From contig NC_088314.1 in assembly GCF_910592395.1 (NCBI RefSeq), forward strand, positions 16,775,998 to 16,839,997: a DNA stretch of 64,000 nucleotides. Direction: 5' to 3'. A program made the position numbers and the translations under genes. Below, in pieces: positions 36,835 to 64,000 of this stretch (within the stretch, counting starts at the first letter, position 1; every line of letters starts with the position of its first letter). The notes under the pieces were generated by a model. It had not been told where the DNA came from. It did no database searches and saw only the letters and a list, made by a program, of their open reading frames with translations. This DNA comes from Lineus longissimus. Taxonomy: Eukaryota > Nemertea > Pilidiophora > Heteronemertea > Lineidae.

Positions 36835-38105
36835 CTACATGAACTCGTTGTCAATCACGCCATCAATTTCGTCAGTGATCTTGGACTGTAATATATCAGC
36901 GCCACCTCCTGAGCGAATATCCAAAGGAATAAATCCATTTTTCATGCTGGGTGGTGCTGCAGTAGTGTAGGTAGAACGGAAATTATGGAACTCGTAGTCA
37001 GTCATGTTCGTAATTTGGACATACATCAGGTGGATTTCCTTTTGAGCAATGTTCTCGACTGTTCCTGGCATATCACCTCCCTTGTCAGGATGTGAATCAC
37101 CGAACTTCCCTCCAGTGCACCAGGTACCATGACCGGGGGCATCTGCGATTAGCACCAAAAACTTGGCTCTGTGTTCCCAGGAATAATTCAGAGCAGATTT
37201 CAGAGCCCGTATTTTGTCCTCAGGAGTATCGCCACCACCTGATGGAGACATTTTTGAGACTAATGCAGTGACAGAGTCAATGTGTTCAGTGAAGGGTTGT
37301 TCTTGCGTGTGTCCTGCATCCCCAAAATCTTTGTAACCAATAAAGGCGACACGCAAATCTGTTAACTTGCCACTATATTTCCGAACAGATTCACGAACTT
37401 TCTGAGTCATTTCGGTAATGTATTTCTTGGCCATTTCAATATAGCTACCCATTGAGCCAGTGGTATCCAAAACAAAACAAAGATCAATGCCAAAAGAGTT
37501 ACAGGAAGTACGAATGGGATTTGTGGCCAAATATAGCGCATTCTTTGATCTTTCGACTTGTTCACTGAAAACCTTCCCCATTTCTTCATTCCATATCTGG
37601 TCTATGTTTGTCATCGACTTCCCTTCACTTGTTTTCACCGTCTTCTCTTTCTCTATGAACTGATCAGGGGGCACCTCATTCCGTCCCTCTGCCATGAAGA
37701 GCTTTCGTAAGCCATCAGGAAGAAGTTTTGGGTTATTCACAACAACGTAGTTTGGGAAGTTTGAGAACACACCACCAGTAAAATAACCAATGCCGATGCC
37801 AGTAACCATGATATCATTGCTCTCCGCATAAGCCAGACTTGTCTTCAAGCGCCCTGGTGTAGAATCAAAGCCATCCGTAAGAACGAAGATATATTTTTTG
37901 GCTTTGGCAGCACTGTCGCTGATGATCAATTGAGTGGCATAGAGGACAGCATCGGATATGTTAGAGCTGCGGTCTTTGAATGTGATGGCATTGTAGGCTC
38001 TTGCCTTGGCCACGGCATCCCATTCCTGCTGGAAACCTTTGATAATGAGTGTCTCTGCTCCCGCAGTCAGCAAGTTGAAACGGACACTGCATGCATGCAA
38101 TGCAG
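36835..38105 (-). CDS. Last exon of the giant gene: rest of VWA-2 and VWA-3
   Basis: The exon begins after CCAATTTCTTTTCAG (AG at 38107-38106) in phase 1 and ends in TAG at 36835. Joined to the upstream exon it reads ...FLGLA|ALHACSVRFNLL..., completing a von Willebrand A fold. SNISDAVLYATQLI supplies the middle MIDAS segment and YIFVLTDGFDS the third. A second complete VWA follows near 37480-36840 with LCFVLDTTGSMGSY, GGGDTPED and LIADAPGHG, all three MIDAS motifs kept. This VWA is closest in style to those of alpha-kinase-associated (vwkA-type) proteins, by eye. There is no signal peptide or ATG at the 5' edge, so it is not an independent gene. VWA domains of this kind bind partner proteins through a Mg-coordinated acidic residue. 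Confidence 0.85.
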
Positions 38106-39618
38106 CTGAAAAGAAATTGGCAATTCTCAGGATGTGTGAACAATATCACGCCAACCACAAAGGGAAGTATATAATGCTTACTGCCCTTTTGAAAGTTGAA
38201 AGGCACCATGTGATGTCAAGCAGTTTCCAGCAGTTTGTTTACTGACTAAATTCTTAACACAATGTATAAAGTAACGAAAAAGTTGCAAAGGTATGTATTT
38301 TAAGATTTCACATGCACATACTTATTACGCTTATGAGAAGAAAACATATTCTGCAAAATATTGGAACTATTTCGCCGTCACAGAAATAATTCTGATCCTC
38401 GAAAATATTGAAATGCAGTTATTTGAAAGAGTCAGATTGTTCTGATTATATTGGGCAGGGAAATGTGGACGTGGGGGTTGAATAAATTTATGTAAATTAG
38501 GTTCTTTATACAGCAGAGGTTTGGTCATTTGATTGTTTCCCCTATGGGCGATAGACAGGATACCAACCAAATCTCAATGACTCATGGAAAGATGCAGATC
38601 ACCGAGAGTTTATATTAAACTAGCTGGAGATACGAGTACACTGAATCAGGTCACGGACAGGCTTTAAGCTCCAAGCTTTCATTTAAATACCTAGCTTGGG
38701 GATGATAGACTTATTCAACTCCTTTATTAGCTTTGTAAATCATTTCTACGATGGCCGTGGTTTTGATTTTGTCTCATAAGAAAGTTTGGTAATGATAAGG
38801 ATAGTGGTGTTCAGAATAATTGGTTTAATTGTGTGGGGAACATTGGGAAGAAGCAGTGAAATGTTAGAACCACGGTGATAATGAATATTGTATTTATCTT
38901 AATGTTCACTTTCCGGTGTTCTAAAAAATTTCAGAAGATTTTGTTTTGAAGGTTGTGTTTTGTGTCGCATCCTAAAAAATGATCTTAAAAGTCCAGCTCT
39001 CAACTCAAACCCCACCCGTTACCTGTGAATAATCAATCACCAGCAAGATTTATTGTGTTTTTTTAATGGAAATCGCCGACTCTAAAAAGCCATTTTTGAC
39101 CAAAGGATTTATAAAGGAATATCAACTCGACATAATGTAGATGGCAGACAGGGCACATTGATGAAATCTGAGCAAGAAATGAATATCATTTCTTGTGGTA
39201 TGGTACACTTGATCATCAGCATAGTTTAATTAACGAGGCCAGAAATATCACTGTGTTAGTTTCATGAAAATTCAGGTTTACCGTGTGCCAACTTAGTAAC
39301 ATTAAGCATAACCAACGAGAGTTTTGCCATTTCTGGCAGGTTCACTGAATAGGTTTCCAGTCCCTCTAACTATAAAATCTCAGACAATCTCAGGGACTGA
39401 AGGCTGAAAACAAAGCGATTTTATTTCTGTTCGACTTTTCAATGTCCTTTGGCAACCCTTAAATGAACACGAACAATAAATTCAGTACACAATCAATATG
39501 AGGGCATAGTTGGACCGTCTGCTTCGGGAACCGGCCTCACTCCTGTCGTAGGGTAATTCAGTCGGGCACTGTAATAAAAAAGGTATACGAAACGAAAGCA
39601 TGAACAAAGATAACTTAC
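38106..39618 (-). other. Intron of the giant gene (1513 bp)
   Basis: The donor GCTG|GTAAGTTATC (GT at 39618) and acceptor TTTCTTTTCAG|CTGCA are both near consensus. Removal joins two halves of a VWA domain in frame. No repeat or gene is seen inside. It is the only intron I can support in 27 kb. Confidence 0.85.
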
Positions 39619-42198
39619 CAGCTAAACCGAGGAATCCTTGGATGGCTCCAATGGCAGTCATTCCAGCCATAGACGCAGATGTATCCAGTATGACAGAGAC
39701 CTGGTAGTCTTTCCGTGGGTGTCCAATCATGTTCTCGTAGATCTTCTTATACTGCCCATCCGTGCATATGAATCTGATGAAACCCTTCAAGGAGAATGTC
39801 GGGCCATGGTAATCTTGGAGCGGTCGTGTGGGCCGGTTATTTGGTAGTACAAGTGTATCAAGGACAGTGTCTAAGTCTGTAATCAGGGTCTGAAATGATT
39901 CCTCTTCTGTATTAATTTTCATCGAGCACTTGGTGATGACTGCATTTTCGGCTATGTCAACCTCGTATGCATCAAGTTCATGGGATACTTCTTCGAACAG
40001 TTTTGTGAAATCAGTTATCAGGTCTTCATCCATATCATCTGCTCCCAAGTCCCGGTAGAGGTCGCTAGCATAGATAGACTTGCCCCATTCTATGTCCGCA
40101 TTTGATTTGTATTTCAGTCCGGCCTCATTACCTTGCAGACCAGTCAGTGGTTCTGCCCATTTCAAAGGAGAGAATGTAAACTGCTTGCTTGCAGCCTTTT
40201 TACTTTCAGCGATCACCGCAGACAAGTCATCGCAGATATTCTTGTTCAGCCGATGGGCTATTTTTATAATTTGATCAACAAGGTCATTTTGAGGATCAAT
40301 ACTTTCCCACGCACCAGGTGCAATGTTATCAAGGATGTCCTTTGCTCGATTTACGCTCAATTTGTAGAACTCCAAGTCTTCGTTTATATGAGGGTTGGTT
40401 GTCAAAACAATCATCCTAGCTTTTGCATCATTCTGGTATGTGCCGTAGGCATCTTTACTTTGCTGAGACCATATTCCATCGGTTATCAAGACAACAAATC
40501 TGTGCTCATTTGGATTGATATCAGTATTGAATATTTCTCTTGCTACAAATTTCATTGCATCTGCAGCAAGAGTTTTTTCTGAGGCATCAAAGGCCTCAAT
40601 GATATACTGACCAATTTGGTTGTCTAAGTCTTGTTCGAATGTCTTCAATACTCTTTGGCTCTCCTCTCCTCCGAAGCGTACCACACATGTTTGATACTCC
40701 AAACGTTTCATTGCTTCTAGAAACACTATCAGAATGTTCAATGCTAGAGTCATTTTTTCGCCATTCATACTGCCCGAGTTATCAACCAGGAACACAAATT
40801 TAAAATTTTGTCGGTCCAGCAAATTAGCTGCATGCTTGCCTGTTGTATCATTGAATTGTGTTAAGATATTAACAGCATGAGACTGGTGTTCTTTTAGGAT
40901 GCGAGCCAGAAGTAAATATTTGAGTTTTTCTTGTTTTACAAATGGCAGATCCTCGGGATTTTTGTACTCTGCTGTATTACCAACTTCATCAACTAATCCA
41001 AGACTTAACAACTTTTGTTTACACAACTGCCTCATTTGCTTTTTTTGTTGCTCTGTGAGTGTTATTTTAACTTTTCTACCCGTAGCTGATTTTACATCTT
41101 TACTATCCCCAACAGCAATGTCGATATATTTTGATGGAATAATGATAGCATCTTCATGATCATCTGAGCCATCATGTTTCCTTTCTTGGGGTAATTCCTT
41201 GATTTTCCGAATTTCAGCTAAATGGTCTCTGTCCGTCTCAAGCTTCAATCCATGACTATCCGGTTTATTACTGGTGAAGGGAGAAGCATCAGGCCATTCA
41301 CTAACAAAGGCAAGATTATCTGGTATTTCTCGCTTTGTATGTGGTACCCCCTCCACGGAAAGTGTGCCAATGATATCAAACTCCTTAAAAACTACCTGCA
41401 TATCCCTATGTTTATCCGTCCTGGTATGAAATGGGTTCAAATCCTCCTTTTTGCAGAACTTCACATCATAATCGTCAGCTATTTTGAGAGTTTTTAACTT
41501 TATACCATCTTTCAAACATTTTTCTTCCAAGTTTTTCCCATTCTCACCAAGCGATTCCACCACAGTTTGCAGGACACCATCAAGTTTCTTTTGGAGATAT
41601 CCTACTGTTGTTTCGAGTTTTCCTGTTACGTGTCTTTGTTTCCACACTTGTCTTACTACTCCAAGCACTTTGTGCAAGAAACGGCCAGTGTCAACCACTT
41701 GATTAAGAGTACTAGGATCTAGCCCATCCATTGACCTGCCAAGAGCAAACTGTTGCACAATGTTATCAACAGTTTTCTCCAAATGTGAAACAGATTCAGA
41801 AACATGAGTAGTAATGTTGATAACAGCATCTGGATCAAGGGAGGATATATCCATGCTAGCACAATCTTTTTTAATGGTATCTGCAATACTACAGGCCTTA
41901 TCCAGATCACTTCGGGTTCTCTTTTGCATCTCTTGAGTCTCCTTATTTACTGGTTTTTTTGCGTCACTCCTGCCACCCACAGGTGCCTTTCCATTACCAG
42001 TGCCGCTGACTGGTGCCTTTCCATCGCCAGTGCCGCTGACTGGTGCCTTTCCATCACCAGTGCTGTTGACTGGTGCCTTTCCATCGTAAGTGCTACCGAC
42101 GGGTGCCTTTCCAACACAAGTGCCGCCGACTGGTGCCTTTCCATCGCCAGTGCCGTTGACTGGTGCCATTCCATCACCAGTGCTGCTGACTGGTGCCT
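39619..42198 (-). CDS. Giant gene, downstream part of the large exon: decapeptide repeat, VWA-1, start of VWA-2
   Basis: An open frame runs from the decapeptide repeat (APVSSTGDGK-like units) into a Lys/Glu-rich helical region, then a midasin-like VWA near 40800-40330. That domain has FVFLVDNSGSMNGEK (MIDAS DxSxS), KTLAADAMKF and VLITDGIWS. A spacer of about 250 residues follows, then VSVILDTSASMAGM opens VWA-2, cut by the donor at 39618. The frame would read past the donor to a stop at 39482, which is intronic. No ATG-led start is credible: it is in a different frame from the AAA part only because of two single-base deletions in the repeat linker. The link to the AAA part is inferred from the shared decapeptide and Gly frame and from the midasin architecture. 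Confidence 0.75.
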
Positions 42199-42660
42199 TC
42201 CATCGTAAGTGCTGCCGACGGGTGCCTTTCCAACACAAGTGCCGCCGACTGGTGCCTTTCCATCGCCAGTGCCATTGACTGGTGCCATTCCATCACCAGT
42301 GCTGCTGACTGGTGCCTTTCCATCGCAAGTGCTGCTGACTGGTGCCTTTCCATCGCCAGTGCCGTTGACTGGTACCATTCCATCACCAGTGCTGCTGACT
42401 GGTGCCTTTCCTTCATAAGTGCTGGCGACGGGTGCCTTTCCGACACCAGTGCTGCCGACTGGTGCCTTTCCATCGCCAGTACCGCTGGTGATGCCTTTTC
42501 ATCCCCAGTGCTGCTGACTGGTGCCTTTCCATCGTAAGTGCTGCTGACGGGTGCCTTTCCAACACCAGTGCTGCCGACTGGTACCTTTCCATCGCCAGTG
42601 CCGCTGACTGGTGCCTTTCCATCGCCAGTGCTGCTAACTGGTGCCTTTCCATAACCCGTA
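41982..42660 (-). repeat. Coding minisatellite: 30-bp unit, decapeptide APVSSTGDGK, about 22 copies
   Basis: GCACCAGTCAGCAGCACTGG followed by TGATGGAAAG recurs every 30 bp. All copies read APV(S/G)(S/G)TGDGK-like in one frame except for single-base deletions near 42485-42500 and at about 42199. The antisense strand and the other frames give repetitive, spurious open frames. Confidence 0.85.
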
Positions 42661-43163
42661 GCTAGAGTGCTTCCCTAAATAGTACCAGTTCCACCCTTTT
42701 TGTCACCAGTACCTCCAGCACCTCCCTTTTCACCTCCAGTGTCATCTGTTCTGCCCTTTCCATAACCAGTCTCTCCATGCCCTCCCTTTCCGCCTCCAGT
42801 TTCACCATTTCTGTCACCAGTCCTTCCAAGTTCTCCCTTTCCACCTCGAGTTCATCCTTTTCAAAGTCCAGTCCCTTTCTTTCCCCCACCGTCACTTCCT
42901 TCTCTGCCTTTTTCACCAACACCACCATCCCCGCCGCCACTTCCTCCATTGCCTTTTCCACCACCACCACCCCCGCCGCCACTTCCTCCTTTACCTTTTC
43001 CACCACCACCACCACTCCCGCCGCCACTTCCTCCTTTGCCTTTTCCACCACCACCACCACTCCCGCCGCCACTTCCTCCTTTGCCTTTTCCACCACCACC
43101 ACCACTCCCGCCGCCACTTCCTCCTTTGCCTTTTCCACCACCACTACCCCCGCCGCCACTTCC
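42199..43163 (-). pseudogene. Frame-broken low-complexity linker between the AAA part and VWA-1
   Basis: In the frame of the AAA exon the sequence continues past the stop at 43166-43164 as a Gly/Lys-rich repeat (about 15 residues, GGSGGGSGGGGGKGK-like, 42905-43260). It then becomes a collagen-like Gly-rich segment (GRTGDRNGETGGGKG) and the decapeptide repeat. Stops in this frame are TGA at 43164, TGA at 42861, TGA at 42852 and TAG at 42675 (lowest coordinates). The first three fit GGA-to-TGA changes. Single-base deletions near 42490 and 42199 shift the frame twice and bring it to that of VWA-1. A different frame (42662-43288) is open for 208 codons with VVVEKAKEEVAAG repeats, but that is another reading of the same repeat. 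It is either genuine decay, an unrecognised intron, or assembly error in a repeat. Confidence 0.65.
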
Positions 43164-55100: not shown

Positions 55101-58100
55101 AATGCCACATCTGAGGGCTTGTAGATCGATCTCCTCTGATTCAGTGTCTTCACTTGCATGCCCCACAGACACAGACCCTTTATGAATCAAACCACATATA
55201 TCAACAGATAATTGAGAGAAGGAGACGGTGTCAAGACTCAAGCGGCGAGAAGTGGCTTTTATGAGTTGCAAATGGTCCTTCAGCTTTTTTAACTCGGCCT
55301 TTTCTGCCGACACCATCCATAAAAACCCATTAAGAACATGGAGAGCATTCATTCTGGATAACAATGTCAGTGTCAGTACTTTGTCAGAAGCAGACCTCTC
55401 CATGAAGATTGCGGGGGTTGCACAACCCAATGCAAACTTGCAAGCAAGAAATTCCATCCTACATACCGTTGCAGTGATAAATTTATCATCCCTAAAGTCT
55501 TCAAATGCCGTGAACATGCCTCCTATCGCATCACACCGCTGTTTTTCATTTCCGATAACTGGCATTTGCAATGATCTCTCCACTGCACTCACAGCAAAGC
55601 TCATGGTTTGTGATATCATGCTAGTACCTGAGTCGGGCAAGTCATCAATAGTGGACATCATCTGCTTCAATATGTCTTGATGGCCACTGTTTGTCAGACG
55701 TTTAAGGTGAGCAGAATACGACTCAGCAATATTCAGCTTCTGCAGTGTGTTTCTTATTTTCTTCAGCTCATCAGCAGGAGAATCAGAGGCATTCTCAAGC
55801 TCTATGAGTTTCCCAAAACACACACAGATCAAATCAAGCTGTCCAACAAGGTTGATAATAGCCACTAACACTTGATCACGATTCTCCGAGTCCAGAAATG
55901 TTGCTGAACTTACATATAAAATAATTTTATCCATCATACGCTTGCAGTCTCCTTCCAGCATCTTGTTTGAGTAGTACATACTGTCATCATTGAGATGTTC
56001 ATGAAGAATTCCACATTGTTTCAATGTACTCAGCCAAAGTGTTGCAGCCTGTGCATTACTTCCACATTCCAACCAACGGCTTGACACAAGGCCATCAAGT
56101 TGAGACGTTTGATCTTGATCAGTCACACTAACTCCTTTGAAAGAGGTTAGTATTATTTGCATGGAATCCACAAACCCCCTGACGGCTTCTTCTATTTCAG
56201 CCTTTTTCATATTACGAGAATACATTTTGGTTGCAGAAAGAAGTAATGCGTTGAGAACCTGCACTGCAATACCACCCATGTTTCTTGCAATATCCTTGTC
56301 AGTGCAAGTGGGCATTTTTACCAGCTTCTCGTTGAAGCTGACGTCGCCTGAACCACCAAATGTCTGGACTTCTGATCTCAGCACACTTTCGTAGATCTTA
56401 AACATTTCAGACCGGCCATTGACAATTGGATCAAGGTAACATCTGAACACTGCTGCAGACAATGCCATCATTGGGTCTTTGTTCTCATTTTTGATGTGGT
56501 GAATCACGATATTTGCTGCAGTCATCAAACTTCTGTAAGTAAACTCATAGCTCTTGACGAGCTGAATCTGCTTCTTCTGGCACTTTTCCTTCATCCTGTG
56601 GTGAAGATTAACAAGGATTCTGACAATGTGCTCACTTCCTTGGATTTCCTGAAGCTGTGCAGCCAAAAGATCATGAGCATCAGTTCCATAAATGTTGTCA
56701 AAGCTGGCCTTGTCACTGACAATGTCAAAGGTATCAATACATTTGAGATGGATGTTGATACACCTATTGCGGAAAGCACTGCTCAGACTTGTTGCTTTAC
56801 TACGATCAGTATTGATGGTTGCAAATAATCTGAACTCTGGATGAATGCCACCACTCTCTCGTGTGAGGACTTCATCAGTTCCACTTTCAATCAAAGCAAT
56901 CTGTGGTTCAGCTTCAGCTACAGAGTTCAGCCTTTTCAAAACATCACCGGGTGCTTGGTCAATGTTATCTAGAAGTACCCAGTCACCGTTGCGAATGGCT
57001 TCGACCAGAGGACCTTCAATGTAGAAGAAGTCAATTTCAGATGATGTGTCTTGTCTCATGCCTATCAATTCATCTACGTGTGCCAAGTCAATGCGCAGTT
57101 GGCTCAAGTGCTTCACACATTCTCCATGTGTATCTTGCTCATGCTGTAGCATCATCGCTGATATATCTGAACAAACCTCCTTCAAATTGTCAAAGGTCAG
57201 GTCAGTGGATTTGTTCAGATAGAGTGATTTGTGATTCCGATAATGAATTGCTAATTCATCAAAGACCTTTGATTCTTTGGCTACTGAGAAGGACAATGTT
57301 ACTAATTTTTCAAAGATCTCCTTAATGTTCTTCACTACCTTTTGTTTCAAGAGTGCTTCATTTGTGACAGTCCACGAACCCAGGAGGTTGCTTGTAGTTG
57401 TATCCTGGTTCATTGGGAATAAGGTTATTTTCCTCTGTGCCAGACGAGCCAACTCTAACACTAGTGATGTCTTGCCAGCAGCATTGCCGCCATGGAGCAG
57501 GATGGTATGACCAGTTCTAGAGGCAGTTGCCAAACAGGCCAAGTTTTCAGTCATTATAGGTGAATGATAAAAGGGCAATTGAACTGGTGATGGATAATTG
57601 CCCTTTGTAAGGTAAACGTGTCCAATCCTTACAAACTGATCAAGATTCTCTTCTATCTCCAAGAAAAACTGACTTGTGTATTCTGTCTGTGGAGGAAAGT
57701 ATTTGTCTATCAAGGCACAAACCTTATCCTGGTCTACAGTTTTCTGTAAATTCTTTGCATATACTATGTTTAACAGTAGACGAATACCTTCAATTGCAAC
57801 AATGTTATTTGTTTTGGTCCTATTTTTCAGACCGACATGTGACAGCTTGTGAAATTCAGAGTTGGTTTCTGCTGCGCGAATGAATTTCACAATATCCCTC
57901 AGATTGAAGCTGGTGTTGGTCATTCTACTTCCAATTTCACGATTTTCTGCTGCTTTTGATACTTCCGTATGAAATGCTAGAATATTTTCAACTTGATCTT
58001 CTGGGATATATCCACAACTCACAGGCCCCTCCATTCCCCCTGGGATCATCTTGTACAAACCAATCTGCCAAATCTCCTCTGGAGAGAAATCAGTTAGATT

Positions 58101-61100
58101 CAAAGTAGTGAAGTGATTTTCAACAGATTCTGGAAGCCTAGTCCTACCACCTCCGATGGTTTCCGGATTTTTGGTGGCGAACAGTGTTATATTCTCTAGT
58201 TTGATGAGTTCTCCTGTTGCACTAAGGCGGAAGGATTTGTGTCCAGCAAAAATGGGAATCAATTTGTCCAAGAGGATTGGCTGAGCTAGATTCAACTCAT
58301 CCAACAGTATCCATGTTGTTGATGAAGCTTCTAGGGCCTTAAGTAATTCACCTTTAACAAATTCAAATGTCCTTTTTCCATGTTGCATTCTTGGTATAAA
58401 TGATCCCATCAAGTCCTCGTAAGTTGTATTTGCACTGAAATTTATTCTGATGCACTTATAACCTAGTGCCCTTGCCAATGTTTGGATGATCTTGGTTTTG
58501 CCTATTCCGGGTGGACCATTGAGGAGCAACTTGAGTTTACACTTCACCGCTGCAAATACCCTGCAGATGTTTCGAAACGTTGTTTGACACAGATGAATTC
58601 CATCCAAGGGATGAATTCCATGGGCACCTGGGGCTAATGGACATGTGAATGGTGTGTTGAGAAGATGCACGGACTTCCCCTGGTCACTGTCTATCAGTTC
58701 TGCCCAATCCCGCTTTTTGTTTGATTCGATGGCAATGCCTTCAGACACCTGTTTTATCCTGTCATCTGGAGCAATGCCTAACACAGCAAGGACTATGGAT
58801 AGTGCAGCTTGGCCTTTAGCTTTATCATGGTACTGGAGCTGATCCAACCAGAGAAACATAATGCCAAATGTTAACGTTTCCTTGAAAGTACTCTCAGTGA
58901 TCACCATAAACTCTTCAAGCTGCTTCTTTACAAAACAACCAAGTCTTGTAATTTCCCGTGGAGTGATGCTGATGTGCTTTTGAAAATGCTTCATGAGATC
59001 TGTCAACATCTTTTGTAACTCTTCCTGAGGAATTCCATGAGGAATCTCCACGAGTTTTGAGAGCGACACCATTGCATTGTCGTCATATGAGGATACCTTT
59101 ATCTCAGTCATTCTGGATCGTATGGCTGGACTCAGATTCAGCTTGCGTTGCTTGGCCTTGGATACATGGACAGTACCAAAAATCATCATGTCTGTGGATA
59201 TTGTCAAATTACTGTGATAATCCTTGTGTCCTCTGTCTTGTGAATTAATGATCTGCTCTTCTTCTCCAATAGTTATGTCTTCAAACACAGCGAATGTCGG
59301 TTCAGTTTCCAATAAACTGTTTAGTCGTTCCGTAACTGCTTGTGAAGGAAGGTCTATGTCATCAAGTACTAAGACACTGCCTTCTTTTACTGCCTTTGTG
59401 CACGGGCCATCTTGGAAAATAAAGACAAAATTTAGAGAATTGTCCGATTGGATTCGTCGAACCTTGTTCAAAACAGTATTGTATTTATCAGCGATTACAC
59501 TCATTGAATTCAAATTGCAGTGTGCCTCAGCTGGAAGGATGTTAAAGAGTTGACGAATGCACCATTCCATAGCGTCTTTCATTTCATCGAAACTTGGGTT
59601 GTTCAATGGATGTGCAGAAAAGGATCCTTCCCTGGACAGTTGAGGTTGTGATTCAAAGGAATACAAGTCATCATCGTCATCAATGTACCATTCCATAGCG
59701 TCTTTCATTTCATCGAAACTTGGGTTGTTCAATGGATGTGCAGAAAAGGATCCTTCCCTGGACAGTTGAGGTTGTGATTCAAAGGAATAAAAGTCATCAA
59801 TTGAAATTATATAAGTATGTGTGTCACTATCATGTTCTTCCTCGAGAGAGGACAGATCTCCTTCCTCATCTATGACCTCCATTTCCCCTAAGGATTCATC
59901 ATCATCATCATCACTATATTCTGAGTCACTCTCAGACATAGACTTGCTCGTCTTATTACTGTCCACTGGATCAATGGTGACTATAGGTGGAAGATCCCAA
60001 ACATCAAGAAGATCTCCCATAGGTTTTTCATCACCATCAGACTCCTCAAAGTCATCATTATCAGACTCGTTTGCCATGTGTCCAAAGTCAGTTGTTTTCT
60101 TAATCAGATGAGCCTTCAGAATGCTTTCAACATTAATGTTCAGATTTTCAACACATTTATCAACGGCCTCCAACCGCACTTCAATCCCCCTGACGCTGTC
60201 TTCATAATGGTTCCGTAGCTGAGACACTGTGTTGCGACTAACGGAGTAGAACTGAGATGCCATGAGAGAGAGAAGACTGACTGTTTCTGTGAAGGAATAA
60301 GGCCTGAGACCACCAATCAAGTCGGCAGAATCCATATCTGGGTAACAGAGCACGTTGAGTTGGTCTGCTTGTCGATCATACAGTTGGCACCATGTCTCTA
60401 TAAGATGGGTCTTGTATGATGTTGGTCCTATGAGCAATACGGGTTCCCTACACATCCCTGCAATACAACAATTCCACAGGTGCTCACGAAATTCTGGTGA
60501 GGATGTTGCTAACATTTTCCATATGTCTAAATTCACACAAGTGTCTCGAACTCTTAAATCTAGTCTCTGGTCTGGATTGTTGGCATCCATCAGTGTGTGA
60601 CTTTTCATGTCCACAATTACACGTGGCCGGATCCTCTTTAAGCCAATTTTCAACCTGGAGCAGGGGAATGCTTTTTGCAGAACTGAGAGGAGCCTTTCTT
60701 GATCATCTTCACATACCCTGTTATAGAACAACTGAAATCCTATCACGCCCCAATCAAGTGAAGGAAAAACAGACTTTCTCCGAATCCATTTGATGATTTC
60801 TCTCATCGTTACCTTGATCCCCTCACCCAAGAGTGGGATGTTGGACTTCTTCTGTGTCTCCTCATTAATCAGTGAGTAAGCGTTAGCTAGTGCCTTAGAT
60901 GTGTCTTTTACTTCCTTTTGAAGATCTAGATTTCCTTTCAAGTCATCGTAATCTCTTGTCGCAATGATGAATTCCAATTCACGTTCTGAGAACTCCTGGA
61001 ATGTGGTCTCGGTGAACCTAGAACGCAATGTAGCTGGTAACTCTTTCCTCCCAGCATACGTAGAACCATTTTGGGTGGCAAAGAAGCGAAAACCTTCTGC

Positions 61101-64000
61101 GGCCACTACAATTGTATTTGTAGCCGGATTCATGATAGAATGGTCTCCCTCAAGCAGAGGATAGAGCATGTTCAGTATAGCTGGCTCAGCTAAATCAAAC
61201 TCATCTGCCAGAAAGAATTTGCCCTCTTGCATTGCCTTTATAAGTGGACCAGGTGCATATCCTCCTGTTGGAAGAAGGGAACCAAGATAATCATTCACTG
61301 ACGTGTTATCCGTATTGTTGACTCTTTCTAACTCTCTTCCAAGACATCGTGCTAAATGGACAACCAAAGATGTCTTCCCAGTTGCAGCAGGACCTTCCAG
61401 AAGGACTGGGTATTTGCATACTAAAGCATTGGCCAGGATACAGGCATTGTCATATCTTGACGTTGTCATACATTTGTCGATGATGTGATTTTTGTTAAAT
61501 TTGCTGTTCTCTTTGATGTAGTTATAGAATTCATCATGATGCGAATTCATCTCAGGGAATGCTGTTTTTAGGCTACGTAATTTCTCCCCAAATTTATCTG
61601 GATGCCTTCGGAATGGTGACAATAAGTTGAGGTCAACAGCTGCACTGAGCGCACCAAGACAGCCTACTTTAATTGCATCTGAGTTGAGAGCTCTGTATGC
61701 GCCATCCACTGTTCGTGCTAAATGATGCAAAGTCAAGGATTGTCCTTCGTTCATTTTTCTGAATGCTGCTACAACCTTTCCTTGGTAGGTCAGCAGCTCA
61801 GAATCTCCGCTAAGGGCACAGTAAATTTCCTCTACCATTTTACTGGAAGTCATCACCTGATTTTCAAAGTGGATCACAGCAAATCTGTTATAGAGTGCTG
61901 GGCTCAATTCAGTATTGGTAGCAATATTGCTACCTTTGAGTCGTTCTGACATCATGTTTCCCTTTGGTGGTGTCATGGTGGCAATGATCCGAAAATCTCT
62001 GTGGGGGCGTATCATCTCTGTGCCTTTTGTAGCATCTTCCGTGATTGTCCAAACTGGCGGATTTTCTAGAACACTGTTAAGCCTTTCCAATATTGTACTT
62101 TGAGCTTCAGAGAGATTCTCAAGTATCAACCAATAGCCCTCTTCAACAGCCTGTGTAACGATACCTCTTCTCCACTCCACACATTTGTTCTGAGGAATCA
62201 GACAACCTACAAGTGTTTCTAGCTCAGTTTGAGGTGTGATATGTAAAGAGACCGTCTTTTTTTCCCAGAGGCGTGCCAAAGCTCTGACAGTTTCTGACTT
62301 GCCGCAACCAGCTTCGCCAGTAATGAGAACTGGCTGCCTTTGTTCAATTGCCCTTACCATTTGGAGCCAGGTTTCTTTCATCAGGTTCGTGATTGCCGAT
62401 ATGGGGAAAGCACTGCTATGTTTTGGATCCGGAAGTAAAATATGTTTGCTCTTGTTATATTTTGCAATGGTTTCAGTGAACAAACGGGTTATTTCATTCT
62501 GCGTATTCTTATCACGTGACAAGTCTACAAATCTTTGATGTATAGATTGCAGCTTATCCGTCTGAGAACGCCTGTCGCAAGCAATTGCAATTATTTCTTG
62601 GAAGAATCCCTGGCCTATGTTAGGAATTTGATCTCGAGGGACATATTTGTCCAACAGTAGCTGTCTTATGGACAAGTAGGCAGCAAAAGAAACTTCACTA
62701 ACAAAATCACCTGATGAGTCTGCACTTGCAGACATGGAATACCTGATACATTCTTCACCAACTCTGATAACTCCTTGATGCTTCTCTTCACCAGGGATCA
62801 CTGCAATATTCAGATGGCCATCAAATGGTGTGAAATCAGGTTCATGAAGACCTTTCCGGATAGCATCTAGAATCAATATTCTGCTACCTTCTTTGCGAAA
62901 CCGCGCCCCATAGATCTGCCATGCTTGTGATGCCAGAGCTCGATTCTTTATGGTAGTCGATTCTCTCAAGATAGGTAGAAGACGATCAGCCCAACGCAAA
63001 GCTTCCCGTAGGGTAATTTCTGCGTAAGGAGTGTTGTTTTCCTTGAAGGTACTGTTTGACATGGCTTGGTGTATATATGTGTGTGTATCCATTATCATCT
63101 TTGCAACTTCGTACCCATTATTTCTAGATATGCCTTTTTTAATAAGTCTGTTTCGAATGATAAGTTTCATTTCATCAGCAGTAGGACTAGCGATGATGAC
63201 TGGCACATATCTTGACAGCATAGATGACGACTGCTCCTCACGTTTTCCTTTGTACAGACCTGTGCTCGGATTCTGCGTACAAAAAAGGCGGAAATCCTGA
63301 TGTCTTTCATACTGTACGCACCGCCTTTCTTCAACCATATCTCCATATTCACTTGAACTTTCTGCAGATTCCGTGGGCAAGAAGAGAATACCAGTATCAA
63401 TGGCATTTTCTATGCTACAAACTACAGATTCAGGAGCAAGATTCATTTCATCAAGAAGGAGCCAAGCACCCTTTCTGAAAGCGAGTGTGAAAGGTCCTTC
63501 CTGGAATTCAACCACCGTTTTGCCCTTTCTTTTTGTAGGTACCGCACTTCCGAAGATATTTCCTATAGTTGTACTACTTGACAGGTTAAACCTGATGACT
63601 GGTTTGTGTAGTCTTCTGGCGGCTTCCATGACTATTGCTGTTTTGCCGGCTCCAGTTGGCCCTTCGAGGAGCAGGTTTAACGGATTCTGCACAACCTCCA
63701 TTATGAGGGTCAAGTTTATTTCCATTGTATTGGTTTCAATCAGTGGCTCCAGGCTGCTTGGTACGAGCTCTTCCAGTTGTTCATCAAGGTTTGACTGTTT
63801 GCAATCTTTTGGTATTCCCAGGTGTTTGTCTCTTTCTGGTTCAAGCAAACTTCTCACTGTCTCTATTTCAGTTCTCAACGCTTCCTCACTAACCCTACAG
63901 TTGGGTAAATTCTGGGATTTCAAATCTTTGTAATACATTTGAAGAAGGTCAATGGTTTTGGCTTCCTCAGTTTGTAAATCAGTTGCCTCAATGTCTGAAG
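43164..64000 (-). CDS. Giant midasin-like AAA+ protein, main exon (5' end outside the window)
   Basis: The frame is open from the window edge to the TGA at 43164, more than 6,940 codons without an intron; the first Met in view is at 63938 (residue 1 below), but the frame is open upstream of it. Six AAA+ modules follow in order. Their P-loops are GPTGAGKT (93), GEAGCGKS (541), GPAATGKT (849), degenerate GPTSYKTH (1171), GPPGIGKT (1808) and GGNAAGKT (2150). Walker B segments include LLLDEMNLAP, LILENLSEAQ, LADEFDLAEP, LVLDDIDLPS, LLDELNLAQP and LLDNIDQAPG. This is the hexameric ring plan of midasin and dynein. Residues of about 2450-5170 are a helical linker with a coiled coil (about 3870-3980). 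About 5170-5750 is beta-rich, Ig-like. About 5760-6830 is helical repeats, then a hydrophobic segment and Gly-rich tail. Function is unknown; midasin itself removes assembly factors from pre-60S ribosomes. Confidence 0.85.
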   Translation of the reverse strand, partial: SDIEATDLQTEEAKTIDLLQMYYKDLKSQNLPNCRVSEEALRTEIETVRSLLEPERDKHLGIPKDCKQSNLDEQLEELVPSSLEPLIETNTMEINLTLIMEVVQNPLNLLLEGPTGAGKTAIVMEAARRLHKPVIRFNLSSSTTIGNIFGSAVPTKRKGKTVVEFQEGPFTLAFRKGAWLLLDEMNLAPESVVCSIENAIDTGILFLPTESAESSSEYGDMVEERRCVQYERHQDFRLFCTQNPSTGLYKGKREEQSSSMLSRYVPVIIASPTADEMKLIIRNRLIKKGISRNNGYEVAKMIMDTHTYIHQAMSNSTFKENNTPYAEITLREALRWADRLLPILRESTTIKNRALASQAWQIYGARFRKEGSRILILDAIRKGLHEPDFTPFDGHLNIAVIPGEEKHQGVIRVGEECIRYSMSASADSSGDFVSEVSFAAYLSIRQLLLDKYVPRDQIPNIGQGFFQEIIAIACDRRSQTDKLQSIHQRFVDLSRDKNTQNEITRLFTETIAKYNKSKHILLPDPKHSSAFPISAITNLMKETWLQMVRAIEQRQPVLITGEAGCGKSETVRALARLWEKKTVSLHITPQTELETLVGCLIPQNKCVEWRRGIVTQAVEEGYWLILENLSEAQSTILERLNSVLENPPVWTITEDATKGTEMIRPHRDFRIIATMTPPKGNMMSERLKGSNIATNTELSPALYNRFAVIHFENQVMTSSKMVEEIYCALSGDSELLTYQGKVVAAFRKMNEGQSLTLHHLARTVDGAYRALNSDAIKVGCLGALSAAVDLNLLSPFRRHPDKFGEKLRSLKTAFPEMNSHHDEFYNYIKENSKFNKNHIIDKCMTTSRYDNACILANALVCKYPVLLEGPAATGKTSLVVHLARCLGRELERVNNTDNTSVNDYLGSLLPTGGYAPGPLIKAMQEGKFFLADEFDLAEPAILNMLYPLLEGDHSIMNPATNTIVVAAEGFRFFATQNGSTYAGRKELPATLRSRFTETTFQEFSERELEFIIATRDYDDLKGNLDLQKEVKDTSKALANAYSLINEETQKKSNIPLLGEGIKVTMREIIKWIRRKSVFPSLDWGVIGFQLFYNRVCEDDQERLLSVLQKAFPCSRLKIGLKRIRPRVIVDMKSHTLMDANNPDQRLDLRVRDTCVNLDIWKMLATSSPEFREHLWNCCIAGMCREPVLLIGPTSYKTHLIETWCQLYDRQADQLNVLCYPDMDSADLIGGLRPYSFTETVSLLSLMASQFYSVSRNTVSQLRNHYEDSVRGIEVRLEAVDKCVENLNINVESILKAHLIKKTTDFGHMANESDNDDFEESDGDEKPMGDLLDVWDLPPIVTIDPVDSNKTSKSMSESDSEYSDDDDDESLGEMEVIDEEGDLSSLEEEHDSDTHTYIISIDDFYSFESQPQLSREGSFSAHPLNNPSFDEMKDAMEWYIDDDDDLYSFESQPQLSREGSFSAHPLNNPSFDEMKDAMEWCIRQLFNILPAEAHCNLNSMSVIADKYNTVLNKVRRIQSDNSLNFVFIFQDGPCTKAVKEGSVLVLDDIDLPSQAVTERLNSLLETEPTFAVFEDITIGEEEQIINSQDRGHKDYHSNLTISTDMMIFGTVHVSKAKQRKLNLSPAIRSRMTEIKVSSYDDNAMVSLSKLVEIPHGIPQEELQKMLTDLMKHFQKHISITPREITRLGCFVKKQLEEFMVITESTFKETLTFGIMFLWLDQLQYHDKAKGQAALSIVLAVLGIAPDDRIKQVSEGIAIESNKKRDWAELIDSDQGKSVHLLNTPFTCPLAPGAHGIHPLDGIHLCQTTFRNICRVFAAVKCKLKLLLNGPPGIGKTKIIQTLARALGYKCIRINFSANTTYEDLMGSFIPRMQHGKRTFEFVKGELLKALEASSTTWILLDELNLAQPILLDKLIPIFAGHKSFRLSATGELIKLENITLFATKNPETIGGGRTRLPESVENHFTTLNLTDFSPEEIWQIGLYKMIPGGMEGPVSCGYIPEDQVENILAFHTEVSKAAENREIGSRMTNTSFNLRDIVKFIRAAETNSEFHKLSHVGLKNRTKTNNIVAIEGIRLLLNIVYAKNLQKTVDQDKVCALIDKYFPPQTEYTSQFFLEIEENLDQFVRIGHVYLTKGNYPSPVQLPFYHSPIMTENLACLATASRTGHTILLHGGNAAGKTSLVLELARLAQRKITLFPMNQDTTTSNLLGSWTVTNEALLKQKVVKNIKEIFEKLVTLSFSVAKESKVFDELAIHYRNHKSLYLNKSTDLTFDNLKEVCSDISAMMLQHEQDTHGECVKHLSQLRIDLAHVDELIGMRQDTSSEIDFFYIEGPLVEAIRNGDWVLLDNIDQAPGDVLKRLNSVAEAEPQIALIESGTDEVLTRESGGIHPEFRLFATINTDRSKATSLSSAFRNRCINIHLKCIDTFDIVSDKASFDNIYGTDAHDLLAAQLQEIQGSEHIVRILVNLHHRMKEKCQKKQIQLVKSYEFTYRSLMTAANIVIHHIKNENKDPMMALSAAVFRCYLDPIVNGRSEMFKIYESVLRSEVQTFGGSGDVSFNEKLVKMPTCTDKDIARNMGGIAVQVLNALLLSATKMYSRNMKKAEIEEAVRGFVDSMQIILTSFKGVSVTDQDQTSQLDGLVSSRWLECGSNAQAATLWLSTLKQCGILHEHLNDDSMYYSNKMLEGDCKRMMDKIILYVSSATFLDSENRDQVLVAIINLVGQLDLICVCFGKLIELENASDSPADELKKIRNTLQKLNIAESYSAHLKRLTNSGHQDILKQMMSTIDDLPDSGTSMISQTMSFAVSAVERSLQMPVIGNEKQRCDAIGGMFTAFEDFRDDKFITATVCRMEFLACKFALGCATPAIFMERSASDKVLTLTLLSRMNALHVLNGFLWMVSAEKAELKKLKDHLQLIKATSRRLSLDTVSFSQLSVDICGLIHKGSVSVGHASEDTESEEIDLQALRCGIDKVKGEIGQTCERLMNLKAASEYKELVEMMQLFSKHFRWQLMHDWMQTYNSGSKDKDYVLNFLMGTSSESVQQGDIKDIVALFGKVLTSSTARTSSLKIAFLEMVSDDELETLLYGDQAHAQVLLVFMDGSSILFDRKNLLAFDYRDIPVYKLEIPNCGGSELQDTVVKLKDMSRKRQMKLDVRDIKVELPDYPKEFPLLGTALVVQKLLLETDMNNIVGMKIEDEDLAELLNQTREVQQNLMDILQKTNKTKASTVSLKTVMSGLQKVFESVECTQKEECDLAALSSFLSTVEDVNLTDFIVKVQNELKQQIDSIVDENLAGKARLGQILEHNQNILNWMRVVDDLKEHLFDNMARRFHTLSCLLDCCHRHINQTLQACLVSNTETSYEDACTASETLRDNFTAVLQYISVDGCGIEGSCSDFIALLRHITKDSAEMVEKLFLPSRDMDSLLEDYQFDISKLNSYFIAVPSAPVQGITEIQEKQKNPKLQKWKNQVKEWETILQDLGRDAKLHGLDVMQKQIVDQLARLREMDLAKSTEDNMHQMKIRVARLEEIFLQEKKASQEERKMKSHIDITSIMDTIEMHDIKDSDIELTSPGVHCLTSEDSKKSLSCMIKELDSMKSGSLQHTPDAFEKTVRCLWDLQNTGYALDITREMIANISCHEESIIRLECLRDHLDDAEFLLLANRLKVVLSKTEEEYEEETVMKCLTELMNVLQALRLKHFSQLGQMDMNSVAALNQFVTISCDEYPVDIATLHQRIDNIKQAGVTLAKHLNKVASKGHSIQQEFYKIPDFVTSFTEPKVTNCRNLVNQCANTREFDKTCLEEGIRTLFELDEGDSILQRKFIEHKSGLFTDTLDALVRATDIEYDHNLPAFILFSNLNFLYFCGRFWSDISDGLEEMYKFEDNKISQFVCGPLCKDYQLQKSTIETEIKESNDKLTRLVNHFQEKKDAHERLMKELRNVKMTAPSPVLKQKEKENIENDSWEKHTCQYEKEKNELEEKMNSGRAKIDKLVEAHHKNLRSHWTRFLQAVREYGGVVSGIVDEIATLVLNSILHKRNTMPEQSRSEQTLIEQVRTKELYEKVKKLNDGDKACIKSCCILLDELQGRVSKLTQKYVHEWDSFLGQGTRLAEVLSRCLLSGHSIAASIRSCMYNMLDVMKVKKDAGDIDAFLTIWEEVRLISAKVIPADASLHGGSELTEGEMEEAMSGIKDIHQMESRLYNDIYQTHVAYSRKFLARMMIFYICKSGKTSQDTDTLLKYSEMPALPKNNAALTILLTRLCDEAKSLGFDKHQLRSFSNLQSVSLYVLADQVKSFDDYLKHNEDSETQVSNDLRKWATKGIDELINVSVVMKYMIDHLTKLLKTFQASRTNHLTQEEEHALEELIDRVNHIMNAGQNNACSASSDTLYHLCSELYNISTKLESGKYGCCGLIICAVELMETMSKSRCHLKPWLNNIILMSEKVNLALACILLSTVFLTRIKELDFSQDCICKYLTGRRQNQHFTSAAIIAQYSYHALKEIMNLSIDAFRSNDLFCDVNKRFEKTILFAKGCVHMVCELLHKSPKDVEEMLLEGCSINELVGISDIEAGTKMMKAGAFMGGLADISKRFDSYQGAIQKCDSFLKELKKTGTDWLNGMEALLAMRKGVLEYLKVDSATTYEEGVKCCQERNERRKNIYEEEMNQRQTSIEEAQRLQLSIPHNLAAYYFKVTKESSRTSGRHEFDRLVLRMIELESYLLKTDKVKLPVIKGLFLKQPRMLQLKMKEIFIDKFNRKAMNFFYRHDKGKWDVHYTGKLGITVEYYGKASSVESDSFKNYPNLEQAFHLHRSELPSRSFQLDLDTDVSFVDIIVEMIPNDPKRERETLFKTVINVEELQHGHAHQLKTKRTNPASSASIVFEYDSDVAFVPLHDEMRRFCLESGADLKDSMYEEFAPTEDKSALDHFYESEKQLGKLEHCVKAIKQPKPKEPKYETLPSPSEFRYSDPDDLKKLALNTLMTERLQRVIDDFQSTVADNERIGKEFRDYLGQLMDSAEKSLQNGVSEQLIDHCIKVASLVKLIISRVKMMDSYRDELERQYSKFLKSANCIKDPKDLIRYRWFGFKRELVGLNEVYLPAQPNAVKKALKTVNAYKIGERSVLCYLKTELSWVVVKLSQVMKDTLCSSMSDYIRLTEFVNQVSATLDRPQEMISILNELKVNESHLRQLNKLISGAAAFQPMRCMLSLADVKRLRPKVARLDVEKTPQGSLVCSHSSVALDLGVLVKDIYQTKGIHLVLCSINFACDYAFDSSYRDMNIDIKPDAMGKIANGHFINLAIQPDLEKLPPKPYSNSFHISLKDSENPKNTTDVLLAVKFKIQVLDKFCLLPGLCKDRGNNCSVLDLQKVCSLSITKSFSLENPLDIPIRLKFVHEANLTFSKDEIRLRPHEEKEQEFSLSIKPHEAKHGEKAINVHIYYMADTFHELTIKYNVCKPKLCLFDKDRLISNTNQVQKSFPPISPRRPFSCSDISLRNSGDVELELGKVEKVSDGVDFELSNHVLEPGEEIKLVIHVNPEVEGGYSSSAEISATAPDGTVCRTVTVRVTGKAEWPKLLISPKRMEFSIADAANPIRKKLDLKNTSEVTATLYGMSFEGQILINPLKKFPLQICPNTKEHLELELTPPMKSSFELEIMFDSDTKDGRIVHNIEGKICMPSLAFHPIVLDVGRLSILHPEVKFNLTVQNRGSVEASIKLKCHINKPLKVKLKRKEVKVFPGDKKNVKGTVTLDNSAMDEPFLFKSFIGQIRVFSKGMADQIVPLIGQLEGEEKGYAEKTIAAEKDIVPATKQSSIKKVKLKDIKTTLEHLADIEEEPLSTLLTPFMNAASMRSNYDDVDKLMTVMKQNKITEETIGYFYREYLGRRPLSSENNVFLEPCEQREASFKLAMSLADEIAHTFKNTDAFTASILSAQEKSTSVALDKTLKLGKHILQQENAPKEAVDRLRSLRSPMKNGLSKPYHENLQKVSALASAMNSDFFGIEVIGNVGNVLDSILKNMTNESPENADTTKDLMRRHDLPSNEVIDDLLEYIDDVHDTSMSPSDAVSKYLKGRGIPFDPVTLKDSVEAFSPGGMLRKDLEYIHQTLQKFGDRVLEEHYGIVSIPDTYATAQEFSNVLNCGSQFEEGKHITDTLQNIAESTISQETDDLAGIMNVTRDIMRMTEVPKEVLQKVGMLEQLKEISERCLSEDSSDTFDTLETVSKVLGSSTSLDTVRDIKNKLDNVLESRSVVDTATAFQFVRDVLPEMPVKVSCKVADEISSFSQKIIEDGEFRPQTMELTESVLKAVGCEQGLSDLSNMTGTLSQVVQKCVSNKKVDSIDMISSAKTLLGPKCSELTDAALKVTQTIMNGGDFGNVQLLGISSDLLEMTNARPQLKTVCKISQDVMGFLNVVQKNNMVNTDLCKSTAEKILALQKLPKDPNLASNLAKLATDYLAHGGLKTAGLDEILRNLGMPEEASNVIGIMDDVSNVANIGSVAMRGNVDATRMLNQIEYLMAKYGAPEEALKSVKVGQTLMSIQQEVSAGLLQPDTVNKHVMTLCDTLDAPDEVKVAAKVAREAMNVVQDVYKQRKIDPDKLYEGVGKILDATGCPEEAVKAANIAKHVVKAGKKISKQNKIEPSDVFSCVHDIMDEMNATPEVKEIVKLTECAIDVGSKFAKTRKPSATAILEAGDKLMDLAGVPPEAKQAINISKEVCGLIKDAKYHRKVDSDKLFDVADKIADLPGLPKEVKDVVHVNRQVYKLGKDVFEKKKVSSSAVKDATSEIIVIFNAPPVLKKEIDYGKQGYRLVNDLAKNGKVNKKAAVSLLTDVMQDLGVPEEVTKDIDTGMKVYEAVKDIKHGVDAMKTAITASKVDSGMLGIAAAAFSLIKVITEVDIPEEVSFAIEMALGVTALLLASNPVTAALAAVGLALTAAFGGLSLGMGGGSGGGGGGVRGKGKGGSGGRGGGGGGGGKGK
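43270..43480 (-). other. Hydrophobic segment in the giant protein
   Basis: After the last helical repeat the protein reads IAAAAFSLIKVI and then AIEMALGVTALLLASNP, followed by VTAALAAVGLALTAAFGG, long enough for one or two membrane-spanning helices with small-residue zipper spacing. It lies directly before the Gly/Lys-rich repeats. Membrane insertion is an inference from hydrophobicity read by eye. Confidence 0.45.
43485..44695 (-). repeat. Array of 45-residue helical protein repeats (135-bp units)
   Basis: At least eight consecutive units follow the pattern G-x-P-E-E-x-K at the start, a basic K(K/Q)xK(I/V)(D/E)P near residue 28, and DxLxDxxxxIxDL near the end. Examples start GCPEEAVKAANIAK, DAPDEVKVAAKVAR, GVPPEAKQAINISK, GLPKEVKDVVHVNR and GVPEEVTKDIDTG. 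Several units are exactly 45 residues. More divergent units appear to extend upstream to about 45250. Each unit is predicted to be two or three helices, so the array may form a solenoid. I do not recognise the family. Confidence 0.75.
46700..48430 (-). other. Beta-rich Ig-like (ASH/MSP-like) modules in the giant protein
   Basis: About four modules show the alternating hydrophobic strand pattern and recurring phrases typical of ASH/MSP-type domains: ISLRNSGDVELELGKV, LVIHVNPEVEGGYSS, LDLKNTSEVTATLYG and LTVQNRGSVEASIKLK. Such modules occur in cilia- and centrosome-linked proteins such as HYDIN. The assignment rests on these motifs only. Confidence 0.5.
59562..59813 (-). repeat. Recent 126-bp in-frame tandem duplication inside AAA4
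   Basis: The block starting CCATTCCATAGCGTCTTTC at 59562 is repeated from 59688 with hardly any change, adding 42 residues (SFESQPQLSREGSFSAHP and the following FDEMKDAMEW) next to an Asp/Glu-rich stretch. It keeps the frame. It lies in the acidic insert between the degenerate P-loop and the Walker B of AAA4. Confidence 0.9.

Follow-up and report, generated by a model that had tools for sequence, protein, structure and literature searches.

A giant AAA+ ring and triple-VWA gene of Lineus longissimus points to an apparently unnamed, widespread family related to midasin

Among giant AAA+ rings made of a single chain, midasin and dynein are the textbook cases. The window analysed here, a stretch of 64,000 nucleotides from Lineus longissimus (NCBI RefSeq assembly GCF_910592395.1, contig NC_088314.1, positions 16,775,998 to 16,839,997 of the forward strand), carries on its minus strand a giant gene whose predicted product joins six AAA+ modules to three VWA domains. 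The locus thereby raises the question whether such a gene is a deviating midasin, an invention of its own lineage or something else. A preliminary description, made from the letters alone, had read it as a lineage-specific machine that is not a canonical midasin and reuses a ring-plus-VWA logic. From comparisons with relatives we conclude with great confidence that the predicted gene belongs to a family separate from midasin, and this family is found far beyond the lineage of Lineus.

The ring modules lie in a single minus-strand frame of 6,944 codons without a stop (43167-63998), which is open at the right window edge. The stop-free length together with strong homology rules out a chance open reading frame (ORF). 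The hidden Markov models of Pfam matched AAA_5, the Midasin AAA lid, VWA and a HYDIN-type immunoglobulin-like (Ig) domain in the gene; within the long frame AAA_5 was found in 7 stretches (1e-100) and the lid at 3e-17. Six AAA modules were located by alignment to relatives, with Walker A motifs at residues 113, 561, 869, 1190 (degenerate), 1828 and 2170 (Table 1). Against PDB sequences the best matches of the ring were Rea1/midasin (1e-91), followed by NorQ, CbbQ and CobS. Dynein heavy chains likewise have six AAA+ modules in one chain. No sequence match to a dynein motor is present among the 12 PDB sequences matched by the ring at E ≤ 0.001, and the available excerpt of PMC7159879 describes dynein as an apparent exception to the vWA association.

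The relation to midasin was characterized with a ring tree of family and midasin rows (1,805 columns, LG+G4, quick search). The 31 family and 16 midasin rows lay on opposite sides of a branch with a support of 100 in the Shimodaira-Hasegawa-like approximate likelihood ratio test (SH-aLRT), and the window grouped with Hydractinia and three other proteins. The AAA modules were not placed inside midasin orthologues. In agreement with the tree, scoring 212 proteins with a family and a midasin profile gave 56 family-like and 154 midasin-like proteins as well as 2 without a match, the profiles having been built from 31 family and 16 midasin proteins that were all among those scored. The smallest family margin was +214, for a partial protein, while midasins reached at most -1276. 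P0121 and P0122 were assigned to the family by their tails.

An ordinary, fast-evolving midasin orthologue that still acts in 60S ribosome assembly would account for several features. Like Midasin/Rea1/MDN1, the window protein has the same number of MoxR-clade AAA+ modules in one chain and in collinear order, a long linker, inserts in AAA4 and AAA6, and a VWA domain, VWA2, homologous to the C-terminal VWA of midasin with its metal-ion-dependent adhesion site (MIDAS); Rea1/midasin leads the PDB matches, and several relatives carry the database label 'Midasin'. Nevertheless, the ring tree, the profile scores and the catalytic pattern described below rule out an ordinary midasin. The family forms a clade of its own, its motifs appear competent in AAA1, AAA3 and AAA5 instead of AAA2 to AAA5, the AAA4 P-loop of the window is broken, the H2alpha insert of AAA2 and the acidic run ahead of the VWAs are absent, and three VWAs take the place of the single C-terminal MIDAS domain. 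In addition the window protein has an ASH/Ig array, 45-residue repeats and a hydrophobic segment that midasin lacks, and its linker is not recognisably alike. The orthologue reading is thus very improbable, and the preliminary description was right to set the gene apart from canonical midasin.

The difference is most regular in the catalytic motifs. Among 46 family rings, that of the window being one of them, the Walker B letters DE (Asp-Glu) were present in AAA1 in 46, in AAA3 in 45 (P0042 has DK) and in AAA5 in 46, and in AAA2, AAA4 and AAA6 in none. Midasins had DE in AAA2, AAA3, AAA4 and AAA5 in 153/153 rows each and in AAA1 and AAA6 in 0/153, in agreement with the statement on Rea1, in an excerpt of the cryo-electron microscopy report PMC6286127, that AAA2-AAA5 are functional and AAA1 and AAA6 are without Walker B. 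The P-loop motif GK[ST] of AAA4 was found in 0/46 family rings versus 153/153 midasins and that of AAA6 in 16/46 versus 149/153, while AAA2 of the family kept it in 45/46. The 46 rows are the 56 family-like proteins minus 10 whose ring did not cover the profile; seven of these incomplete rings were read separately and followed the DE pattern wherever letters exist, P0123, P0124 and P0125 being the three that were not read. The 153 midasin rows are the 154 midasin-like proteins minus P0043. Rotifer alleles and vertebrate orthologues make many of the rows near copies of one another, such that the counts do not represent independent events. Judged from these motifs, AAA1, AAA3 and AAA5 are most likely able to hydrolyse ATP, and AAA2, AAA4 and AAA6 are most likely structural or regulatory.

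The inserts of the ring differ as well. According to the same excerpt of PMC6286127, Rea1 carries alpha-helical H2 inserts in AAA2, AAA4 and AAA6, of which the AAA2 insert is auto-inhibitory. The spacing between Walker A and Walker B of AAA2 was 62 in the window and 60-94 in 31 family rings versus 154-183 in 16 midasins. By the same measure the family has long inserts in AAA4 (274-483) and AAA6 (162-258). The highest D/E fraction per 60 residues was 0.30 in exons 2-3 of the window versus 0.42-0.55 towards the C-terminus in five midasins; the D/E peaks of the window (0.40) and of P0026 (0.43) fall within the AAA4 insert. This insert of the window protein also holds a near-perfect tandem duplication of about 40 residues, in which SFESQPQLSREGSFSAHPLNNPSFDEMKDAMEW occurs twice (ORF residues ~1402-1480), so that the AAA4 insert appears to be still changing.

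A tree built from the individual modules of 19 proteins (six each) recovered all twelve protein-by-position groups. Odd modules, with midasin AAA1 standing apart, were split from even modules with a support of 85. After removal of the Walker-B columns and the Pelomyxa rows the odd modules (1, 3, 5) of both families were separated from the even ones (2, 4, 6), 54 versus 54, with a support of 87. The DE motifs of the family track this alternation. Pairs of a family and a midasin module were obtained only for AAA3 (support 92) and AAA5 (51). Taken from module sequences, the odd/even division is suggestive, not proven.

Beyond the ring, the module order given by the preliminary description (six AAA+ modules, linker, Ig-like modules, 45-residue repeats, hydrophobic segment, three VWAs) was recovered by Pfam, alignments, the lag-45 signal and the MIDAS motifs, and a linker of the expected size of about 2,700 residues was found. 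No Pfam match was obtained in the linker among the families listed (25 of 52 for residues 1-3500). The most hydrophobic 19-mer of the long frame, at residue 2710, lies within it.

The Ig-like array was matched by Pfam PF22544 (HYDIN/CFA65-type Ig) in one stretch of the long frame at 9.2e-7, above the curated cut-off. A profile of the ASH type, built from the Ig arrays of the window and rotifers, matched 16 family sequences and 0 midasins at E < 0.1, 13 of the 16 at E ≤ 0.01; five of the 16 (window, P0044, P0121-P0123) had served to build it. Searching PDB with the array gave one match, at E 0.79. The array resembles ASH/HYDIN/Cep192 proteins, the Pfam models of which it matches, partly weakly. 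To our knowledge these proteins are not AAA+ motors. By the names of its domains the array hints at docking to a centrosome, cilium or membrane, and the protein could accordingly be read as an axonemal or centrosomal assembly factor whose array would hold it at cilia or centrioles while its ring would act as a remodeller of ciliary complexes. The HYDIN Ig match in the window agrees with this, as do ASH, HYDIN Ig and Cep192_D6 in Adineta vaga P0122, all under Pfam's cut-off, and the precomputed HYDIN Ig and ASH domains of P0128. ASH domains are, however, also found outside cilia, and we regard a dedicated ciliary factor as unlikely.

The 45-residue period is clear in the window: for residues 6381-6830 the mean BLOSUM score at lag 45 was 0.38 versus a best value of -0.364 in 300 shuffles. 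The predicted model of the repeats is all-helical with helix pairs spaced by 45, at a mean predicted local distance difference test score (pLDDT) of 41.6 and from a fragment alignment smeared over full-length relatives. Compared with the rotifer relatives the repeats scored about 0 bits, which is not significant. The architecture expected in related species was therefore recovered for the Ig array and the three VWAs and not for these repeats. Residues 6800-6905 matched the rotifer proteins P0121-P0123 at 8e-9 to 2e-11; a longer match, at 1.5e-24, takes in the hydrophobic segment and the Gly-rich tail. The hydrophobic segment could be membrane-associated.

Pfam VWA was matched in both open stretches downstream of the long frame, at 8e-10 in 42292-39485 and at 2e-15 in 38145-36838 (minus strand). 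The three VWA domains of the window each have the MIDAS motif D-x-S/T-x-S. Among rows with letters it was kept in 13/14 for VWA1, 15/15 for VWA2 and 14/15 for VWA3, where the one miss, P0042, ends; the count covers the D-x-S/T-x-S core, the other MIDAS positions having been displayed. A profile of the VWA cassette, built from the window and 7 of the 19 family proteins that it matched, gave scores of 142-1572 for these 19 and weak matches for 144 of the 154 midasins (best 74). Ring modules and matches to all three VWAs were found in one chain in P0026, P0030, P0033, P0044, P0126 and P0128, while some family models stop after VWA1 or lack it. When midasin C-termini were aligned to the window VWAs with hhalign, VWA2 was best (probability 98.8, E 4.8e-17) and VWA1 second (97.2), and VWA3 gave no alignment of note (1.9). 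On this alignment VWA2 is the equivalent of the midasin MIDAS domain, and VWA1 and VWA3 are extra. A PDB search with the VWA exons gave weak matches, a Glr2806 protein at 6e-5, a collagen VI chain at 5e-4, and integrin I domains and a microneme protein at E of at least 0.09. The window gene thus couples MoxR-clade AAA+ modules to VWA domains with the MIDAS core motif, in support of the proposed reuse of a ring-plus-VWA logic.

Could the VWA exons instead come from a neighbouring gene, the architecture being a chance neighbourhood? The border between exon 1 and exon 2 within tandem repeats would allow this. However, ring modules and VWAs occur in the same order in one polypeptide in Apatococcus P0033, in the Mesostigma-labelled P0126 and in P0026, P0030, P0032 and P0044. 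In P0128, apparently derived from a transcript, one ORF covers AAA2-6, ASH and VWAs, and in the rotifers P0121-P0123 the hydrophobic segment and the VWAs are joined in one protein. A chance neighbourhood is therefore extremely improbable. Relatives' proteins align straight across both downstream stretches, on either side of a 1,513-base GT-AG intron (39618..38106, donor GTAAGT, acceptor TTTTCAG) that interrupts VWA2. The last residues, EFM, are common to the window protein, which ends at 36838, to Adineta vaga P0122 and to P0044, so that the left coordinate of the preliminary description, 36835, is very probably a true stop codon. In the C-terminal (VWA) region P0044 and a Rotaria protein share 68% identity. 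At the other end the gene is incomplete, as had been noted: residue 11 of the window protein aligns with residue 777 of the nearest relative, P0001, from which about 770 more N-terminal residues probably lie beyond the window edge. The readable total is 6,944 + 1,314 = 8,258 codons if the second stretch is counted from 42292, its first open codon; the earlier figure of over 8,500 codons requires the tandem repeats at 42.3-43.2 kb to be coding. As far as its letters tell, the gene is real and intact-looking.

The ring yielded 1,253 matches in a protein search that, like the others here, depends on shared 5-residue words. Among the best 120 of these, Hydractinia symbiolongicarpus stood near the top (44% identity in a segment covering 41%), followed by bdelloid rotifers (Adineta, Rotaria), Hondaea, Apatococcus, a Mesvir1-labelled protein (P0126, read as Mesostigma viride), a Prymnesium metagenome-assembled genome and Pelomyxa, and true midasins mostly ranked below family members. 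A search with the VWA end of P0044 returned 6 proteins. Starting from the Mesostigma-labelled protein, 731 candidates were scored, and the best 120 of 359 matches included further relatives. Among them was P0128, a protein of 7,465 residues with a TRINITY label that starts inside AAA1 and has precomputed AAA_5, midasin lid, HYDIN Ig, ASH and VWA domains. The named relatives comprise a hydrozoan, bdelloid rotifers, two green algae, a haptophyte, a thraustochytrid and an amoebozoan; a taxonomy look-up placed them in Cnidaria, Chlorophyta, Streptophyta, Haptophyta, Stramenopiles and Amoebozoa, with Adineta and Rotaria belonging to Rotifera. A spread over such distant eukaryote lineages rules out a lineage-specific invention, and this part of the preliminary description has to be dropped. 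Databases list several family members under the automatic names 'Midasin' or 'Dynein heavy chain, cytoplasmic'. The check for DE at AAA1, AAA3 and AAA5 tells such auto-named members apart from true midasins.

Outside eukaryotic proteins two peptide patterns were scanned, such that the sensitivity of these scans is limited. In viral contigs they hit 7 loci with matches of 483-795 bases, resembling a single MoxR-type ATPase, and in prokaryotes (one genome per species) they gave 70 pattern matches, among which tblastn found no relative of the six-module ring. Among the top-ranked papers from searches of the openly licensed full-text literature, no title or opening of an abstract pointed to such a family. 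Nowell et al. 2021 (PMC7943196) report a 7,479-residue gene of Rotaria magnacalcarata, which from its size and host is very probably a member; the accessible part of that paper describes no family, architecture or catalytic pattern for it. Arkhipova and Yushenova 2019 (PMC6431247) mention a planarian retrotransposon polyprotein with homology to midasin, which looks, in the portion available, like something different.

The spread of the family also bears on a role as an immune or conflict effector, in which VWA and repeat domains of a fast-evolving protein would sense invaders, as in bacterial MoxR-vWA ternary systems or RNF213-type AAA giants. MoxR-clade AAA plus vWA is the core of bacterial conflict systems described in the excerpt of PMC7159879, several distinct rotifer members sit in separate parts of the ring tree, and linker and tail diverge rapidly. 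Yet the catalytic pattern and the overall order are nearly invariant across distant eukaryotes, which is more like a housekeeping machine, and no death, nuclease or ubiquitin-ligase domain was among the Pfam families listed (25 of 52 for residues 1-3500). We consider such an effector unlikely.

Bacterial MoxR-VWA pairs (NorQ/NorD, CbbQ/CbbO, CobS/CobT) share with the window protein the AAA+ fold class and the logic of a VWA partner. They are separate proteins, and their AAA+ rings are homo-oligomeric. VWA8, in turn, is shorter than the proteins of the present family and falls below the protein lengths that our searches covered. The MoxR-vWA co-chaperone logic, as laid out in the excerpt of PMC7159879, is the basis of the mechanism that we propose: an old eukaryotic family of midasin paralogues acting as an ATP-driven remodelling winch. 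As a whole this mechanism seems to us moderately probable, though by no means assured. Its footing in the sequences is the architecture, the separate clade, the pattern of catalytic motifs, the homology of VWA2 to the midasin MIDAS domain and the conserved MIDAS core motif, from which we infer ring closure, live sites, force generation, substrate gripping and a docking site. The six covalently joined AAA+ modules would close into a ring in which modules 1, 3 and 5 burn ATP; each live unit would be flanked by dead ones, with a three-step cycle as the simplest expectation. Movement of the ring would be passed via the long linker to a tail with three metal-dependent VWA grips at its end. Going by Rea1 and the bacterial pairs, the VWAs would bind a target element through a metal ion, and the ring would pull on the target. 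Whereas midasin docks to the pre-60S ribosome, this machine would probably be fixed to a particle or a membrane by its ASH/Ig array, its repeats and its hydrophobic segment, possibly at the base of the cilium or at the centrosome.

Several observations weigh against this account. In the ring tree 25 of the 47 rows deviate in letter make-up, Pelomyxa forms one long branch, and the search was a quick one. The relatives' records, each from a single genome, may include contaminants. At the aligned AAA1 site the Walker A motif GK[ST] is absent in 4 of the 46 family rings (present in 42). The odd/even split, with its support of 87, is not starred. In addition, even modules of the same family join each other (F2 with F4 and M2 with M4, support 82 each); since, moreover, only AAA3 and AAA5 pair between family and midasin, the module tree does not establish that the other modules are related one to one or that a single triplication of a module pair preceded the split. 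The window linker has no detectable similarity to the midasin linker (hhalign probability 2%), so that force transmission is assumed. Confidence in the predicted structures is low, with a mean pLDDT of 27.5 for the Ig array and 41.6 for the repeats. Finally, the junction between exon 1 and exon 2 falls inside the 45- and 30-base tandem repeats at 41982-43263 and may be an intron, a coding array or an indel site.

Table 1. Features of the predicted gene in window coordinates.
Feature	Position	Strand	Residues and remarks
AAA1	62799..63761	(-)	residues ~80-400; Walker A GPTGAGKT, Walker B WLLLDEMN; hydrolysis-competent by motif
AAA2	61599..62441	(-)	residues ~520-800; Walker A intact, Walker B WLILENLS; without catalytic Glu, without H2alpha-type insert
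AAA3	60699..61511	(-)	residues ~830-1100; GPAATGKT, FFLADEFD; competent by motif
AAA4	58929..60491	(-)	residues ~1170-1690; P-loop GPTSYKT one residue short; Walker B LDDID; partly acidic insert of ~350 residues
AAA5	57819..58631	(-)	residues ~1790-2060; GPPGIGKT, WILLDELN; competent by motif
AAA6	56499..57581	(-)	residues ~2140-2500; GGNAAGKT, WVLLDNID; without catalytic Glu
Linker	48444..56498	(-)	residues 2501-5185, about 2,690 residues
Ig-like array, ASH/HYDIN type	46674..48443	(-)	residues 5186-5775; Pfam PF22544 and profile common to rotifer, algal and other family members
45-residue repeats, ~10 copies	43509..44858	(-)	residues 6381-6830
Conserved hydrophobic segment	43266..43475	(-)	residues ~6842-6911; rotifer matches and hydropathy
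Gly-rich 45-bp tandem array, 8.5 copies	42883..43263	(-)	end of first open frame
30-bp tandem array, 22.6 copies	41982..42656	(-)	partly in second open stretch as 10-residue GDGKAPVSST-like repeat
Exon: pre-VWA1 region, VWA1, first half of VWA2	39619..42292	(-)	MIDAS Asp codons 40783 (VWA1) and 39685 (VWA2); 42292 is the open-stretch start, not a mapped border
Intron within VWA2	38106..39618	(-)	GTAAGT...TTTTCAG; sequence and alignment of relatives
Last exon: rest of VWA2, VWA3, stop codon 36835-36837	36835..38105	(-)	VWA3 MIDAS Asp codon 37467

The remainder of the window holds other features. A transposase-like ORF (4-1188, minus strand) runs off the window edge and matches DDE_1 (1.6e-21) as well as helix-turn-helix domains of Tc5 (2e-5) and Psq (4e-5) type. 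A 450-residue open frame at 5840-7189 (minus strand) has a trypsin-like domain (PF00089, 1.2e-10). At 12053-13093 (plus strand) three near-identical tandem ORFs follow each other about 350 bases apart; a tandem repeat is the more probable reading than a set of genes. Positions 19241-19639 (plus) and 19580-19900 (minus) encode almost identical peptides, which suggests an inverted repeat, for example a foldback element.

In a wider version of the proposal the family would join dynein and midasin as a third ancient giant of their branch. It would probably go back to the last common eukaryotic ancestor and would have escaped notice because the main model organisms lack it. Its ring would be a trimer of odd-even dimers with catalysis in the odd modules only, and complexes located either at a membrane or at the base of the cilium would be the targets that it remodels with its three VWA grips and its ASH tail. 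We put this forward as a tentative and in our own view doubtful extension.

Taken from its sequences, the family is apparently an unnamed, widespread family of midasin-related giants, whose interest lies in its breadth and in the near-invariant, alternating catalytic pattern. A second family of midasin type with different, near-invariant live sites would provide a natural experiment on how work is shared among the subunits of a ring, and the split into odd and even modules in both families gives a testable idea of a ring origin from module pairs. That automatic annotation labels several members 'Midasin' suggests a motor class that has apparently been overlooked. With Hydractinia and the bdelloid rotifers, the family includes animals in which tagging or knock-down would be feasible.
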